Shown: piece by piece, positions 46,483 through 54,263 of the stretch
Layout of the letters: every line of letters starts with the position of its first letter
Position numbering within the stretch: position 1 is the stretch's first letter
Assembly: GCA_005791165.1 (NCBI GenBank)
Contig: SXXW01000034.1
Location: forward strand, 1 to 64,000
DNA length: 64,000 nt
Reading direction: 5' to 3'
Origin: Cytophagaceae bacterium
Lineage (GTDB): Bacteria > Bacteroidota > Bacteroidia > Cytophagales > Spirosomataceae
Position numbers and translations under genes: made by a program
The notes under the pieces: generated by a model
The model's database searches: none
Seen by the model: only the letters and a program-made list of their open reading frames with translations
Told to the model about the DNA's origin: nothing

Positions 46483-48396
46483 CTAATATAACATTCTAAA
46501 TTTAATCGTATCCTGTATCAATTTTAACTCATTCACTATCTCCTCTGAATATTCTTTGGCCACATCCGTAATGACATACCCTGTTTTCTCCGTTGTTTTC
46601 AAATATTGACCAATGATATTGACCTTGTATTTTGCAAACACATTATTGATCTGAGCTAAAATACCCGGTACATTATGGTGTATGTGCAACAAGCGATGCG
46701 CATCCTCTAGAGGTGGCAATTGCAATTCTGGGAAATTAACCGAGCCATAGGTACTTCCATTATTGATAAATTGAAGCAATTTAGTCGGCACAAATTCACC
46801 AATATTCGCCTGCGCCTCCTCCGTACTACCTCCAATATGTGGCGTCAAAATCACATTAGGCAAACCTCTTAATTCATTCACAAACGCCTCATCATTTGTC
46901 TTAGGTTCATAAGGAAATACGTCGATCGCAGTACCCCAAACCTTTCCAGATTTTATGGCTTGCACTAAAGCCGGAATGTCCACCACATGACCCCTGGACA
47001 AATTCAAAAAGATCACATGATCTTTCATCCATGAAAATTCCTGCGCACCTATGATATTGGTATTCGACTTTCTTCCGTCGACATGCAAACTTATAAAATC
47101 AGCAAGGCCAAAAAGTTCCTTCAACGACTTGCATTTTTTTGCATTACCTAAAGCAAGCTTATCAACGATATCATAAAAATAAACTTCTAAACCCAAAGCC
47201 TCCGCAATGACAGAAATTTGAGTTCCGATATTTCCATACCCAACTAAGCCTATTTTCTTGCCTCTAATTTCGTAGGAATTTTTGGCCGACTTATCCCAAA
47301 TACCGGCATGCATTTTGGTCGACTTTTCGAAAATATCACGAGTCAACATCACCATTAAGCCAATAGATAGCTCAACGACACTTCTTGTATTTGAATAGGG
47401 CGCATTAAAAACAGCTATGCCCCGAGTTTCACATTCGGCTAAATCAATCTGATTTGTCCCTATGCAAAATGCCCCCACACACATGAGTCGGGATGCATTC
47501 GGATGATCCAATACTTTTTTTGTTAAGCTCGTTTTAGATCTCAAACCTAAAATAGATACGTCTTTGATCTTTTCAATCAATTCATTTTCATCCAAGGCCC
47601 CCTTCAAAAGCTCCACTTGAAAACCTTCCTTTTTGAAAGCGCTAACAGCCGACGGGTGCACATTTTCAAGCAACAAAACCTTAATCCGAGACTTTGGATA
47701 AGACTGCGCCCGGCTCAAACCATTGATATATAAAAACTCGTCCAATGACGGCACCACATAATCTGCTTTATCAGTCACTGCTTTTCGAGAAACATTTTCC
47801 GTGAAAGCAAAAAACGTATTGGCCAAGCCAGACTCCCGTAATTCATAATCCGTAATGCCATCGCCAATCACACAAACCTCCCCCTCCAAAGCTAAAGACT
47901 GCAATAATTTAACCTTCCCCTTGTCTTGAGAAAGTAAATTAGTCTGATCATATCCTGTAATATTCCCTTCCGCATCATAGGTAAATGTATTGGCATGCAC
48001 ATGGTCCGCCGCAATGCCCATTTCCTCCACCACCGGAACGATGAAGTCCTTAAACCCACTAGAAATAATTAAAATCCGATCCGCATACTCCTCCAAAAAA
48101 TCTTTATTTCGCTGAAAAGAATCCGATATTTTACCTTTTAAAAATGTGATCAATTGGTCTACGTGAGAACGATTAGCAGGCAATAAAGCCACGCGATCGC
48201 GCAAAGAATCTGAAAACAAATATTCCCCCACCATGCCCTTATCCGTAATCTCGCGAATTTTCGAGACAATTTCTTGCTGCTTAGGATTGCCCTGAAGCGA
48301 AATTCTAGCTAATTCATCCAAGCCTTCCACTTTGGTAAAAGTGCTATCAAAATCAATGACAATGGTCAATGGGTCCGTAGGTATATTAGACATCAT
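46483..48396 (-). CDS. SerB-SerA fusion: phosphoserine phosphatase plus D-3-phosphoglycerate dehydrogenase
   Basis: A 637-residue bifunctional protein. Residues 1-220 are a HAD phosphatase of SerB type: motif I IDFDSTFTKVEGLDEL (Asp15, Asp17), motif II ISSGF, and motif IV VIGDGITDYELRESGL. Residues 230-560 are a SerA dehydrogenase: GAFCIGTNQIDLAECETRGI, NAD loop GLVGYGNIGTQ, catalytic LSRGHVVD (Arg), and TPHIGGSTEEAQANIG (His). A C-terminal ACT domain (HNVPGILAQINNVFAKYKVN) suggests serine feedback control. The start at 48396 follows the YheT stop by 13 bases; further upstream the frame overlaps that gene. With SerC next door, the operon encodes all three serine-synthesis steps. Confidence 0.9.
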   Translation of the reverse strand: MMSNIPTDPLTIVIDFDSTFTKVEGLDELARISLQGNPKQQEIVSKIREITDKGMVGEYLFSDSLRDRVALLPANRSHVDQLITFLKGKISDSFQRNKDFLEEYADRILIISSGFKDFIVPVVEEMGIAADHVHANTFTYDAEGNITGYDQTNLLSQDKGKVKLLQSLALEGEVCVIGDGITDYELRESGLANTFFAFTENVSRKAVTDKADYVVPSLDEFLYINGLSRAQSYPKSRIKVLLLENVHPSAVSAFKKEGFQVELLKGALDENELIEKIKDVSILGLRSKTSLTKKVLDHPNASRLMCVGAFCIGTNQIDLAECETRGIAVFNAPYSNTRSVVELSIGLMVMLTRDIFEKSTKMHAGIWDKSAKNSYEIRGKKIGLVGYGNIGTQISVIAEALGLEVYFYDIVDKLALGNAKKCKSLKELFGLADFISLHVDGRKSNTNIIGAQEFSWMKDHVIFLNLSRGHVVDIPALVQAIKSGKVWGTAIDVFPYEPKTNDEAFVNELRGLPNVILTPHIGGSTEEAQANIGEFVPTKLLQFINNGSTYGSVNFPELQLPPLEDAHRLLHIHHNVPGILAQINNVFAKYKVNIIGQYLKTTEKTGYVITDVAKEYSEEIVNELKLIQDTIKFRMLY

Positions 48397-48409
48397 ATTT
48401 TTATATTCA

Positions 48410-49387
48410 TCAAATTCTAAACCATTCCGCCGCACGCTTCTCAGACCAAGTAACTCCTTGGTAATTTTTTGGATAAAAACCACAATGACCTCCCGCTTTT
48501 GGAGCTTCCAAATAGACAAAATCCGAGGATTCAGCTAATTGATATGGAATACACTCCTCCGTTAAAAATGGATCATTTTGTGCATTCACAACCAAAACCG
48601 GAATGCGTATTTTTTCCAAAAAATAAAGCGAACTATTCTGTTCATAATAATCCTCCGCATCTTTAAAACCATGCAGTGGACCCGTAATTACATGATCAAA
48701 ATCTTTCAAACTCTTAATGTTTGCCAACATACCAGCCGTAATATCGTGTGGATACAATGCCGACTTTTCAGTGACTTTTTTTATGAGAGTTTGTAAAAAT
48801 CGATGTGTGTAGATGCGGTTTTCCCGGCGAGCCAACTTCCGGCTACTGCTAGAAAGGTGTAAAGGTACAGAAAATGCTACAGCTTTTCGAATGAATTGAG
48901 GAGGATTTTCTCCTTGCTCGCCCAACCATTTTAGTGTTAAGTTTCCACCCAGCGAGAATCCAGCCAGGGAAATTTGATTTGCTCCCCTTTGGTTTGCCTG
49001 TCTTATAATGAAATCCAAATCATCCGTAGCGCCACTATGGTAAAAACGCAACACTCGGTTTATTTCCCCGGAGCAACTTCTATAATTCCAAGCCAGAATA
49101 TTATACCCTTCACTTTGCATCATGTGAATAAGTCCTTTCACATAGTGCCTGTCACTACTTCCTTCCAAACCATGTGAAATAATTAGAAGAGGTGTTTTGT
49201 CAATATCTCCCTGATTTAAATACCAATCCACATCTAAAAAATCACCATCATCCGTATTCAAGCGCTCTCGGATCGGCTGATGTGGTAAGACCACATGTCG
49301 AAAAAGCGCAGGATAGATGCTTTGGGTATGACCCTCAGGCAACCAAAAAGGCGATTTAATCGGATTTTTAATGGGTATTACTGGCAC
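48410..49387 (-). CDS. YheT family alpha/beta hydrolase
   Basis: A 325-residue alpha/beta hydrolase of the YheT/ABHD1-3 group. FWLPEGHTQSIYPALFRHVV at the start, LLIISHGLEGSSDRHYVKGL (oxyanion region), WNYRSCSGEINR, the nucleophile elbow LAGFSLGGNLTLKWLG and the late catalytic His in KAGGHCGFYP are all present. Substrate unknown, likely a lipid or small ester. It starts 4 bases after the SDR gene and ends 13 bases before serBA. Confidence 0.9.
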   Translation of the reverse strand: MPVIPIKNPIKSPFWLPEGHTQSIYPALFRHVVLPHQPIRERLNTDDGDFLDVDWYLNQGDIDKTPLLIISHGLEGSSDRHYVKGLIHMMQSEGYNILAWNYRSCSGEINRVLRFYHSGATDDLDFIIRQANQRGANQISLAGFSLGGNLTLKWLGEQGENPPQFIRKAVAFSVPLHLSSSSRKLARRENRIYTHRFLQTLIKKVTEKSALYPHDITAGMLANIKSLKDFDHVITGPLHGFKDAEDYYEQNSSLYFLEKIRIPVLVVNAQNDPFLTEECIPYQLAESSDFVYLEAPKAGGHCGFYPKNYQGVTWSEKRAAEWFRI

Positions 49388-51606: not shown

Positions 51607-52056
51607 ATGGACAGCAAGGTTTTAAACCAATTGGCCCGTTACTGCGCCTATCAAGAACGCTGCATCTCCGAAATCAAACAAAAAATGAAGGACTTGCTGG
51701 TGGACGAGTCAGACTACGCCAACTACCTAACTTGGCTTTCCGAAAATAATTATTTGAATGAAGCTCGGTTTGTCGAGCTGTATGTTCGATCAAAATTCAA
51801 TCAAAAACATTGGGGTCGAAATAAAATAATGTTTGAGTTAAAAAAAAGGGGGATTCCTGATTCCATGCTTAATAATGCGTGGAATGATCTAAATGAAGCT
51901 GATTACATTGTTCAATTGACAAAAATATTGCACAAGAAAAAAGCGGAATTGAAAACGGGGACGAGCCAACAAAAATACCAAAAGTGTTATGCGTTTGCCC
52001 TTTCAAAAGGATATGAGTCAAGTCTAATTGTAGCTCACCTAAAAGGCCTTTTTTGA
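51607..52056 (+). CDS. recX: Regulatory protein RecX
   Basis: A 149-residue RecX, which modulates RecA filament dynamics. The three-helix repeats are seen in ARYCAYQERCISEIKQKM, WLSENNYLNEARFVELYVRS, KHWGRNKIMFELKKRGI and KCYAFALSKGYESSLI. It is slightly short but complete. It is cotranscribed with hemA by spacing. recA is not in the window. Confidence 0.88.
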   Translation: MDSKVLNQLARYCAYQERCISEIKQKMKDLLVDESDYANYLTWLSENNYLNEARFVELYVRSKFNQKHWGRNKIMFELKKRGIPDSMLNNAWNDLNEADYIVQLTKILHKKKAELKTGTSQQKYQKCYAFALSKGYESSLIVAHLKGLF

Positions 52057-52084
52057 TTTAATTTGCTAAAAAACATTTTTTTTA

Positions 52085-52092
52085 TACCTTTG
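52085..52092 (+). promoter_or_regulatory. -7 promoter element of the tyrosine operon leader
   Basis: TACCTTTG is an exact TAnnTTTG match followed by GGGC and then the leader-peptide ATG at 52097. Transcription would start at or very close to that ATG. Confidence 0.6.
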
Positions 52093-52096
52093 GGGC

Positions 52097-52162
52097 ATGC
52101 ATTTTGAAAACAAAACTTATTACATCGGATATTATTACGCAGGGTATTTCCATTGCGCATAG
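52097..52162 (+). CDS. Tyr-rich leader peptide of the aminotransferase-tyrA operon
   Basis: A 21-codon ORF with a stop TAG at 52160-52162. Its centre encodes YYIGYYYAGYF: six Tyr codons (52118-52123, 52130-52138, 52145-52147) and Phe at 52103 and 52148. This is far above chance and sits directly upstream of tyrosine-synthesis genes. The product is probably not functional as a protein; its translation would report tyrosyl-tRNA supply. The ATG lies 4 bases after a -7 element, so the mRNA may be almost leaderless. It resembles leader peptides of pheA- and trp-type attenuators in other phyla. Confidence 0.8.
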   Translation: MHFENKTYYIGYYYAGYFHCA

Positions 52163-52220
52163 CCGGTTACATAGGTTTTAAATATAACTTACTAACAACC
52201 GGCCCTTCGTCGGTTTTTTT
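52124..52220 (+). promoter_or_regulatory. Ribosome-mediated transcription attenuator (mutually exclusive hairpins)
   Basis: Segment 1, ATCGG (52124-52128), lies between the two Tyr runs and can pair with CCGGT (52163-52167, one G-U). Segment 2, GCCGGTT (52162-52168), begins at the last base of the leader stop codon. Segment 3, AACCGGC (52197-52203), is perfectly complementary to segment 2 and is also the 5' arm of the terminator. Segment 4 is GTCGGTT (52209-52215), followed by T. A ribosome stalled at Tyr codons would mask segment 1 and let 2 pair with 3 (read-through). A ribosome reaching the stop would mask segment 2 and let 3 pair with 4 (termination). Confidence 0.75.
52197..52220 (+). 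terminator. Attenuator terminator of the tyrosine operon
   Basis: AACCGGC (52197-52203) pairs with GTCGGTT (52209-52215, one G-U) around loop CCTTC. Seven T follow (52214-52220). It ends 5 bases before the aminotransferase ATG, leaving no space for another promoter. Confidence 0.85.
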
Positions 52221-52225
52221 GTTTT

Positions 52226-53401
52226 ATGAGCTTACATATATCCACAGCATCTAGGTTAAATTCGGTTGAAGAATATTATTTTTCAACCAAATTAAAGCAG
52301 ATAGCCCAATTTAAAGCAGAGGGAATTCCAGTCATTAACATTGGCATTGGTAGCCCCGATTTGGCCCCTTCGCAAAAAACGATTGATGCCCTAACGGCTG
52401 CTGCAGCAAATCCGAATAACCATGCCTACCAAGGATATCAAGGAATACCGGCATTAAGAAAGGCATTTGCTGATTTTTATGCCACACATTATCAGGTAAC
52501 ATTAAATTCCGATTCTGAGGTTCTTCCCTTGATTGGATCCAAGGAAGGAATTATGCACATTGCCATGGCCTATTTAGAAGCTGGGGACGAAACGCTAATT
52601 CCAAATCCTGGATATCCTACTTACCAAGCAGCTTGCTCATTAGCCGGGGCAAAGGTTTTAACCTACGAATTGTCTGAAAAAACAGGCTGGCTTCCAGATT
52701 TGAAAGCGCTTGAATTAAAGGATTTATCGAAGGTGAAAATCATGTGGGTAAACTATCCGCATATGCCAACTGGAGCAAACGCGGATGATGCATTTTTTGA
52801 AGAATTGAGAAAATTCGCGTTAAAGCATTCCATTTTAATTGTGAATGACAACCCTTATAGCTTTATTTTAAATGATAAACCCATATCGATGTTATCCATT
52901 CCTGGGATGATGGAGGTGGGCATTGAACTAAATTCCTTGTCAAAATCCCATAATATGGCGGGCTGGAGAATAGGTGCCCTGTTAGGCAAATCGGCGTTTT
53001 TAAATCCTGTTTTAAAGTTTAAATCGAACATGGATTCAGGGATGTTTTTGCCTTTACAATTAGCGGCCGTTGAAGCTCTTTCGGCAGATATCAAGTGGTT
53101 TGAACAACAAAATGAAATATATAAGTCGCGCCAAAAACGGGTGTTTGAACTACTAGATTTATTAGCCTGCACCTACGACAAAGCGCAATCAGGGATGTTT
53201 GTATGGGCAAAAACGCCTGACAATTTTAGCTCAGGCTATGAATTATCGGATCAAATATTAATCGAAAATGCGGTTTTCATCACACCTGGAGGGATATTTG
53301 GATCACAAGGAAATAAGTATATCCGCATATCGTTATGTGCAAAAGAAGAAGTGTTTAAGGAAGTTATTCAGCGCATTAAATCTAAATCAAATGGAATCTA
53401 A
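52226..53401 (+). CDS. Class I/II pyridoxal-phosphate aminotransferase (probably aromatic amino acid)
   Basis: A 391-residue fold-type I aminotransferase. SRLNSVEEYYFSTKLKQIAQ and INIGIGSPDLAPSQKTIDAL start the protein, LIPNPGYPTYQAACSLAGAK and NYPHMPTGAN follow, and the PLP lysine is in NSLSKSHNMAGWRIGAL. Closest in style to aspartate/aromatic aminotransferases. Its place behind a Tyr-rich attenuator and overlapping tyrA suggests it transaminates 4-hydroxyphenylpyruvate or phenylpyruvate. Family assignment is firm; substrate is inferred from context. Confidence 0.88.
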   Translation: MSLHISTASRLNSVEEYYFSTKLKQIAQFKAEGIPVINIGIGSPDLAPSQKTIDALTAAAANPNNHAYQGYQGIPALRKAFADFYATHYQVTLNSDSEVLPLIGSKEGIMHIAMAYLEAGDETLIPNPGYPTYQAACSLAGAKVLTYELSEKTGWLPDLKALELKDLSKVKIMWVNYPHMPTGANADDAFFEELRKFALKHSILIVNDNPYSFILNDKPISMLSIPGMMEVGIELNSLSKSHNMAGWRIGALLGKSAFLNPVLKFKSNMDSGMFLPLQLAAVEALSADIKWFEQQNEIYKSRQKRVFELLDLLACTYDKAQSGMFVWAKTPDNFSSGYELSDQILIENAVFITPGGIFGSQGNKYIRISLCAKEEVFKEVIQRIKSKSNGI

Positions 53402-54263
53402 ACAAAAGGTAGGGGTTATCGGCATCGGGTTAATTGGCGGTTCCATCGCCTTAGGACTTCGTGAAAGCGGTTGGGCTTCTGAAATAATCGGCATCGATTC
53501 CAATCCTGAACACCAATCAAAGGCCTTATCGCTCCGATTAGTTGACCGCGTAATGACGTGGGAAAACGCATTACAAGAAGTAGATATTTTTGTTACATCC
53601 ACCCCAGTTGATGTATTAGTCAGCATCATTCCTGAAATATTAGATCATTTAAAACCTCATCAATTGATCATCGAGGTAGGTTCTACAAAAAGTCCCGTAT
53701 TTGAAGCACTAAAAAATCACCCAAAACGCGCCCAATTCGTTTCAACACACCCAATGGCCGGCACCGAATTTTCGGGTCCTGAAGCGGCTGTTCTTGGACT
53801 TTTTAAAAACAAAACCTGTGTCATTTGCGACAAAGAATTAAGCTCAGCTTCAGCCATACAAATCATTGAAGACCTATATGCAAATGGTCTACACATGCAA
53901 TTGATTTACATGGATTCCATTGGTCACGATGTTCATACGGCCTATATTTCACATATTTCACATATCTGTTCCTTTGCCTTAGCGAACACCGTTTTGGAAA
54001 AAGAAAAGGATGAAAAAAGGATTTTTGAATTGGCTTCCACGGGTTTTGAATCGACGGTTCGTTTAGCCAAATCCTCCCCAGAAACCTGGAGCCAGATTTT
54101 CCACCAGAACCAAGAAAATTTATTAGACGTCTTAGACGAATACATCAATACGCTGCTGAAATACAAAGGCTTAATGCTCGCCGGAAGCTATGACAAACTC
54201 AAAGATGAGTTAAGCAAAGCCAATGACATAGGCAGAATTCTAAACAATAAAAAAGGCCTTTAG
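53391..54263 (+). CDS. tyrA: Prephenate dehydrogenase
   Basis: A 290-residue TyrA converting prephenate to 4-hydroxyphenylpyruvate. The ATG at 53391 overlaps the aminotransferase stop by 11 bases and leads straight into the NAD loop VGVIGIGLIGGSIALGL; the frame upstream runs through the other gene and is not used. FVSTHPMAGTEFSGPEAA, the DSIGHDVHTAYISHISHICS helix and the VRLAKSSPETWSQIFHQN segment are diagnostic. There is no fused chorismate mutase or ACT domain, so regulation may rest on the leader. A terminator overlaps the stop. Confidence 0.93.
   Translation: MESKQKVGVIGIGLIGGSIALGLRESGWASEIIGIDSNPEHQSKALSLRLVDRVMTWENALQEVDIFVTSTPVDVLVSIIPEILDHLKPHQLIIEVGSTKSPVFEALKNHPKRAQFVSTHPMAGTEFSGPEAAVLGLFKNKTCVICDKELSSASAIQIIEDLYANGLHMQLIYMDSIGHDVHTAYISHISHICSFALANTVLEKEKDEKRIFELASTGFESTVRLAKSSPETWSQIFHQNQENLLDVLDEYINTLLKYKGLMLAGSYDKLKDELSKANDIGRILNNKKGL

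Follow-up and report, generated by a model that had tools for sequence, protein, structure and literature searches.

The stretch analysed here (the window, all 64,000 nt of it, from contig SXXW01000034.1 of a freshwater Cytophagaceae bacterium) carries a short open reading frame (ORF) rich in tyrosine codons immediately upstream of an operon that contains an aminotransferase gene and tyrA. This leader is very probably a ribosome-mediated transcription attenuator, which would measure charged tRNA-Tyr and control the aminotransferase-tyrA operon. From the sequence and its comparison with relatives one can read the ORF with its Tyr codons, the pairings that it allows, how these are conserved, and which genes the operon contains. 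Our confidence is high for the anatomy and for attenuation as the mechanism; it is lower for tyrosine being the only amino acid sensed in the window's species, because the leader also has a Phe at codon 18.

All elements lie on the forward strand. A predicted promoter of the Bacteroidota sigma-A type has its -7 element, TACCTTTG, at 52085-52092, assigned from the sequence and from the spacing in relatives, and a candidate -33 element, TTTG, 19 nt further upstream at 52062-52065. Four nucleotides separate TACCTTTG from the ATG of the leader peptide ORF MHFENKTYYIGYYYAGYFHCA (52097-52162), which has 21 codons, six for Tyr and two for Phe, ends with the stop codon TAG (52160-52162) and is predicted to be leaderless. 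Segment 1 (AAAACTTAT...ATCGG) is found at 52112-52128. Segment 2 (GCCGGTT ACA TAGGTTTT, 52162-52179) opens with GCCGGTT (52162-52168), the first base of which is the final base of the stop codon. Segment 3 (AACTTA CTAAC AACCGGC, 52186-52203) closes with AACCGGC (52197-52203), 28 nt after GCCGGTT, and these last 7 nt are common to the 2:3 and 3:4 pairings. The 3:4 hairpin is a predicted intrinsic terminator, AACCGGC-CCTTC-GTCGGTT plus seven T (52197-52220), with GTCGGTT at 52209-52215 and the T-run at 52214-52220; its energy is -9.7 kcal/mol when only the sequence not covered by a ribosome at the stop codon is folded. Between the T-run and the aminotransferase ATG (52226) there are 5 nt.

A first-pass annotation of this DNA had proposed a tyrosine-responsive attenuator here, and the promoter box, the Tyr-rich ORF, GCCGGTT with its complement AACCGGC and the T-run that it listed match the sequence to the base. 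It had also seen that ATCGG can pair with segment 2: ATCGG (52124-52128) indeed complements CCGGT at 52163-52167, with one G-U pair. Both alternative pairings are longer than it had described. In 1:2, which would form if no ribosome is present, AAAACTTAT (52112-52120) also pairs with ATAGGTTTT (52171-52179), and in 2:3 TAGGTT (52172-52177) also pairs with AACTTA (52186-52191). Segment 1 thus resembles segment 3 (AAAACTTAT...ATCGG and AACTTA...AACCGG).

In the mechanism that we propose, RNA polymerase would start at or beside the A of the leader ATG, and a ribosome following it would translate the leader of 21 codons. If Tyr-tRNA is plentiful, the ribosome would reach the stop codon and cover segment 2, 3:4 would form and transcription would end at 52214-52220. 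With scarce Tyr-tRNA it would stall at codons 8-17, covering segment 1 and freeing segment 2; the latter would then form 2:3, so that 3:4 is blocked and tyrA is transcribed. If the leader is not translated at all, 1:2 would form and the terminator would win again. The start site, the translation of the ORF, the termination and the response to tyrosine are the parts of this scheme that we infer.

When the window leader was folded with the bases under a ribosome masked, the probability of 3:4 was 0.95 in the ribosome-free state and 0.96 with a ribosome at the stop codon, against 0.01-0.07 when any of the six Tyr codons occupied the A site. With the downstream footprint set to 10, 13 or 16 nt, the antiterminating span is codons 8-19, 7-18 or 6-17, respectively, and it holds all six Tyr codons at each of the three footprints. 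A stall at Phe-3 gives a probability of only 0.01-0.33 for 2:3.

The leader is conserved among close relatives. The family search matched the aminotransferase in 187 of 222 genomes, and a Tyr-rich leader ORF was found in 61/61 family orthologues with at least 62% identity, among the matches listed. The group names Arcicella, Flectobacillus and Siphonobacter used below are taken from the same or very similar leaders on named contigs. Among 31 leaders of the window's group there are 18 distinct ORFs of 66 nt, and in all 18 of these codons 8, 12, 13, 14 and 17 encode Tyr, with exchanges between TAT and TAC at three of the five positions. Codon 9 is Tyr in 12/18 and codon 18 is Tyr in 14/18, the other four, including the window, having Phe at codon 18; Gly-16 uses three different codons, and codons 2-7 vary. 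Further, a scan of 26 loci on named contigs detected a leader in 25, against 1/26 reverse complements and 0/78 shuffled sequences. These loci are mostly from the same species, so they are not extra evidence of conservation. The one that the scan missed (L050) has the Tyr cluster YRYYY, with four aromatic residues in eight codons, and is still a Tyr leader when read. Ten more distant genomes of the family, out of 126 others with a match (49-53% identity among the matches listed), were scanned over 1.5 kb and 1 kb upstream with two sets of criteria, and no leader was found.

To study the pairings we used 38 distinct leaders, distinct meaning that they differ somewhere from 6 nt ahead of the stop codon up to the T-run. 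The stop-proximal segment 2 folds with the region of the 5' arm of the terminator in all 38, and a 3:4 hairpin adjoining the T-run is predicted in all 38. When the sequence upstream of segment 3 was shuffled, 2:3 had a mean z of -2.66, and it was better than at least 285 of 300 shuffles in 31 leaders. In the five-pair core, standard pairs make up 176/190 in 2:3 and 187/190 in 3:4. The fourth core column of 2:3 alternates between T:A (16) and C:G (16), and two leaders (L131 and L133) have matched changes in all three segments, that is a three-way covariation. In 38/38 the core of segment 2 starts within a range from 1 nt upstream to 9 nt downstream of the first stop-codon base, where a terminating ribosome would cover it. 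At equilibrium, a ribosome at the stop codon gives a probability of 3:4 above 0.9 in 37/38, and in 25/38 the probability of 2:3 under a stall exceeds that of the free state by more than 0.1. The first-pass annotation had pointed to the leaders upstream of aminotransferase-tyrA in related Cytophagales as the place to look, and there the Tyr codons as well as 2:3 and 3:4 are conserved, with covariation.

Several observations weigh against this interpretation. Many of the 38 distinct leaders come from close relatives, so that the counts are not independent, and seven of them fail the mark of 285/300 shuffles for 2:3. The window has no match to any Rfam family (0 matches), and the fold of its whole leader is ordinary (z -0.92; 29/200 shuffles fold equally well); judging from the sequence comparison, it is the relatives, and not the window's own fold, that speak against chance. 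The 1:2 pairing, which was part of the scheme of the first-pass annotation, holds up only in part. Its mean number of paired bases in 47 distinct leaders, 13.8, is above both controls (8.4 for dinucleotide shuffles and 8.0 for codon permutations), but single leaders pass 190/200 controls in only 22/47 and 24/47 cases: the pairing is clear on average and modest in single leaders. A stall at one or another Tyr codon lowers the probability of 3:4 by more than 0.5 in only 21/38 leaders at equilibrium. In the Arcicella/Flectobacillus group only 2/14 distinct leaders switch at equilibrium; the others there have stronger terminators and would depend on 2:3 forming ahead of the synthesis of segment 4. 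The more stable hairpin of the E. coli trp leader is likewise 3:4. There are also single leaders that do not fit. In L026 the probability of 2:3 is at most 0.02 at every Tyr codon, and in L134 and L136 the terminator is not dominant without a ribosome (probability of 3:4 0.17 and 0.24). In L127 (G044:C384) segment 3 reads CCCAC for CCGAC, which breaks core pairs of both terminator and antiterminator; a decaying copy or an assembly error is a candidate explanation. Finally, Phe-18 in the window is inside the antiterminating span at two of the three footprints.

The first-pass annotation had called the leader nearly leaderless, and the constant spacing between promoter and ATG supports this, with the start of transcription being predicted. 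In 37/37 leaders from the window's genus and Sandaracinomonas, 4 nt separate TAnnTTTG from the first ATG in frame; in 16/16 leaders of the Arcicella/Flectobacillus group the gap is 4 or 5 nt (eight each). Given that the Bacteroidota -7 box lies at -12 to -5 (PMC9723704), a gap of 4 nt makes the A of the leader ATG the predicted +1. By the same rule the six Siphonobacter leaders (gap 18-20 nt) and L133 (gap 24 nt) would not be leaderless. In total 60/61 leaders have TAnnTTTG within 60 nt, L140 being without one, and 60/61 have TTTG or TTG 18-21 nt upstream of the -7 box, a count that in this AT-rich DNA comes without a chance control.

Leaderless mRNAs are reported to be uncommon in the phylum: about 3.7% of the 5' untranslated regions (UTRs) in B. 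thetaiotaomicron are shorter than 10 nt (PMC7366714), and the leaderless share in Flavobacterium psychrophilum is 5.5% (PMC9723704). In the window's genome TANNTTTGNNNNATG occurs at 58 sites, against 37 for the reversed pattern. The other 57 TANNTTTGNNNNATG sites were read and none resembles a further amino-acid attenuator; 19 of the 57 open ORFs of at least 100 aa within the stretch examined. Leaderless genes may be commoner in this genome than the few percent reported in other Bacteroidota.

The codons of the leader can be compared with the genes that follow it. We scanned 130 loci upstream of homologous aminotransferases, with 40 of 84 matching genomes taken in the draw from the phylum. The scan treats F, Y and W alike and is biased toward neither a Phe nor a Tyr outcome. 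Prephenate dehydratase (PDT, pheA) was located by tblastn and other genes were named by sequence likeness. Of the 82 loci where PDT comes first, 76 have a short ORF with dense Phe and Tyr codons and, after it, a T-tailed hairpin. In a control run on stretches of at least 300 nt, a leader was found in 73/80 such loci, against 0/80 reverse complements and 1/240 shuffles. Tandem complete leaders, each with its own T-tailed hairpin, occur in 22/82 PDT-first loci (including L061, L069, L091, L093 and L250). The scan itself gives 23 loci with two ORFs, but in L106 the two have one common terminator, and this locus is therefore not counted as tandem; its additional ORF, with only Phe, is one of the 99 pheA-type leaders considered below.

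There is a clear difference in codon content between the two types. Phe is found within the densest eight codons in 99/99 leaders ahead of pheA versus 0/25 in the window's group, and the median share of Phe in Phe plus Tyr is 0.57 versus 0. Of the 25 leaders, 16 are wholly without Phe; three others (L031, L032 and L095, of the window's peptide type) have a tying stretch of eight codons that holds one Phe, Phe-18, both stretches having five aromatic residues. A ribosome was also placed on the codon for the first aromatic residue in the dense stretch; the energy of the antiterminator then surpasses at least 95/100 shuffles in 92/99 pheA-type and 24/25 Tyr-type leaders.

The operon content, determined from the ORFs of 19 loci, differs accordingly: pheA-aminotransferase-tyrA-aroF in L061 and L093, for instance, and aminotransferase-tyrA in the window's lineage. 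Twelve other loci without PDT lie outside the family, and the scan finds no leader in 11 of them. The exception, L103 (Saprospiraceae), has aminotransferase-tyrA-aroF without pheA upstream, and two mixed Phe/Tyr leaders, which is consistent with sensing both products of the shared first enzyme. In the window's lineage a PDT gene is found elsewhere in 24/24 genomes outside the window's genus, and 0/24 of these separate pheA genes have an ORF dense in F, Y or W within 400 nt upstream. Among 17 loci of the genus only two unconvincing ORFs with TTG starts pass (L192 and L199; at L189 only 116 nt upstream are available). A Phe leader at the separate pheA of this lineage was therefore rejected, as none is convincing. 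The PDT gene of L281 is a fusion of chorismate mutase and PDT, and the other PDT genes were judged by their similar N-termini. No PDT turned up in the genome of the window itself (84% complete). For DAHP synthase genes, ten loci in six genomes show no convincing leader, L330 having an ORF with a weak hairpin.

A tree of 80 aminotransferases unites the 26 rows of the Tyr group, L050 among them, in a single clade (support 99/94), and mixed leaders are found on both sides of the midpoint root. The Tyr-dominated leaders therefore probably reflect one evolutionary event, to judge from this tree, and the evidence that codons match genes comes mainly from a single change. The ancestral Bacteroidota operon would have been pheA-aminotransferase-tyrA-aroF with one or two Phe/Tyr leaders; upon loss of pheA from the operon, few or none of the leader's Phe codons would have been kept, and the leader would have become a run of Tyr. 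We lean towards the view that, in one Cytophagales lineage, a tyrosine-dedicated attenuator on a leaderless mRNA was retuned in this way from the ancestral Phe/Tyr leader or leaders after pheA had left the operon.

Among other explanations, joint sensing of tyrosine and phenylalanine by one attenuator in the window's species is unlikely. The window is one of the 4/18 distinct ORFs with Phe at codon 18, a codon inside the antiterminating span at two of three footprints; leaders ahead of pheA operons are mixed, the ancestral leader was probably mixed too, and the tying stretches of L031, L032 and L095 include Phe-18. However, codon 18 is Tyr in the other 14/18, 16/25 leaders have no Phe and pheA is outside the operon. 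The invariance of Ala-15 and Gly-16 in 18/18 distinct ORFs, despite synonymous change at Gly-16, would also be expected if the nascent peptide YYYAGYY arrests the ribosome on a small molecule, instead of tRNA being read codon by codon. Such a sensor is improbable: outside the genus it is chiefly the Tyr run that is kept (YYYYYGQ, YYYYALQA, YYYYYANA), and it needs no match between codons and operon content, yet such a match is seen.

Two further explanations concern what the hairpin does. Leader translation could act on the translation of the aminotransferase, by reinitiation or masking of its start site, and not on termination, as the T-run ends only 5 nt ahead of the structural ATG in the window. 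This too has little probability, since the leader stop codon is 63 nt ahead of this ATG, the distance from T-run to ATG is up to 114 nt in relatives, and the T-tailed hairpin is kept in them. The gene recX ends at 52056, 40 nt ahead of the leader ATG, so that the hairpin might simply be the recX terminator and the Tyr-rich ORF a product of chance. We regard this as hardly credible: the Tyr leader is present in 61/61 orthologues, TAnnTTTG in 60/61 and the pairings in 38/38, and leader and pairings persist where the upstream gene is different or lies on the opposite strand (L034, L052), so the explanation was rejected. A T-box or another known RNA family was rejected as well: the window has no Rfam match, and 20 related loci have one tRNA only.

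The preferred reading, attenuation by a tyrosine leader peptide, has well-known counterparts. In the classic trp, his and pheA scheme a leader ORF rich in codons for the product is followed by segment 2 at the stop codon, by mutually exclusive 1:2, 2:3 and 3:4 pairings and by a T-tailed terminator. The trp, his and pheA attenuators of E. coli and Salmonella have the same layout of leader ORF, segments and terminator as that proposed for the window, whereas the Tyr codons, the aminotransferase-tyrA operon and the predicted leaderless mRNA set the window apart from the enteric systems. Tyr-specific T-box RNAs also read the charging of tRNA-Tyr and control terminators ahead of tyr genes; they bind the tRNA directly and need no translation. 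The mechanism proposed for the window, in contrast, needs translation of the leader, and there is no Rfam T-box match in the window or the 20 related loci. Leader-peptide attenuation itself is known, and it has already been suggested in the phylum. Among open PMC papers we found no tyrosine-dedicated leader-peptide attenuator; Lopatovskaya et al. (2010), outside that scope, could contain predictions.

The relevant text of PMC1183508 names seven attenuated operons in enteric bacteria, trp, his, leu, thr, ilvGMEDA, ilvBN and pheA, and tyr is not among these. In Corynebacterium glutamicum the AroR leader, which precedes aroF (Neshat et al. 2014), contains Phe-Tyr-Phe and acts by ribosome stalling; it is reported to respond to Phe limitation, with no effect of Tyr availability (PMC11802643). 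Among the papers found, AroR is the nearest studied case with Tyr codons, and it is reported to be unresponsive to tyrosine. Like the window's leader it is a leader peptide with aromatic codons that controls an operon of the aromatic pathway; the window's leader differs in being dominated by Tyr and in preceding an operon of aminotransferase and tyrA solely. The AroR transcript is reportedly leaderless.

Closer to the window, a study of F. psychrophilum, from the same phylum, mentions 'strong clues' that amino-acid operons are attenuated by leader peptides; it also describes, upstream of pheA, a conserved structured 5' element that matches no Rfam family (PMC9723704). Tyrosine is unnamed in its relevant text, and tyrA and 'aromatic' are absent from its main text. 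The pheA element is probably the counterpart of the mixed Phe/Tyr leaders that precede pheA operons, so that these leaders have probably been seen in part already. In B. thetaiotaomicron leader-like short ORFs have been described in long 5' UTRs (PMC7366714). The first-pass annotation had considered that compact, nearly leaderless control of tyrA by a leader peptide would be notable in this phylum. As far as these sources go, attenuation in the phylum as such had already been suggested (PMC9723704), and it is the tyrosine-dedicated version, on a predicted leaderless mRNA, that looks new.

The first gene of the operon (52226-53401, forward strand) encodes a class I/II aminotransferase (PF00155). 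The 25 NCBIfam models shown, of 66, all stay below their cut-offs for this protein, so its substrate is inferred from the neighbouring tyrA. The latter, prephenate dehydrogenase (53391-54263, forward strand), matches PF02153 and PF20463 as well as NF006307 (336.8 bits, cut-off 295), and its start overlaps the end of the aminotransferase gene. On named contigs, the aminotransferase is 100% identical to that of an uncultured Cytophagaceae bacterium, 78% to Aquirufa antheringensis and 77% to Sandaracinomonas limnophila. Upstream of the leader are hemA (over its cut-off) and recX (from its Pfam domains). Elsewhere in the window, on the reverse strand at 46483-48519, an ORF of 678 aa combines a HAD-type phosphatase domain with a D-2-hydroxyacid dehydrogenase carrying an ACT domain (Pfam), arranged as in a fusion of phosphoserine phosphatase and phosphoglycerate dehydrogenase.

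Other candidate attenuators were noticed as well. In the window's genome, at about 1300-1430 of locus L302 (G000:C25, upstream of 30305), there is a probable Trp attenuator ahead of trpE: the leader ORF MIKAAYNKNGWQG has one Trp and is followed by competing repeats and a T-tailed hairpin. In relatives the trpE leaders contain WW (L301, L303) or WWW (L300, L305). From its sequence the L302 leader would not be leaderless, because the promoter-like box is further from the ATG. Ahead of ilvD, two members of the family have ORFs rich in I, L and V, followed by T-tailed hairpins (L311 at 1138 and L313 at 1196).

The survey of loci suggests that a similar circuit, for which there is no Rfam model, acts on many operons of the phylum. 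A leader without a 5' UTR raises the question whether initiation at the extreme 5' end keeps the ribosome near enough to RNA polymerase. If the proposed history is true, the codons of a leader record the products of its operon. Homologous operons that contain pheA and have mixed leaders, and those that lack pheA and have Tyr-dominated leaders, make a natural experiment for asking how specificity is set by the codons of a leader.

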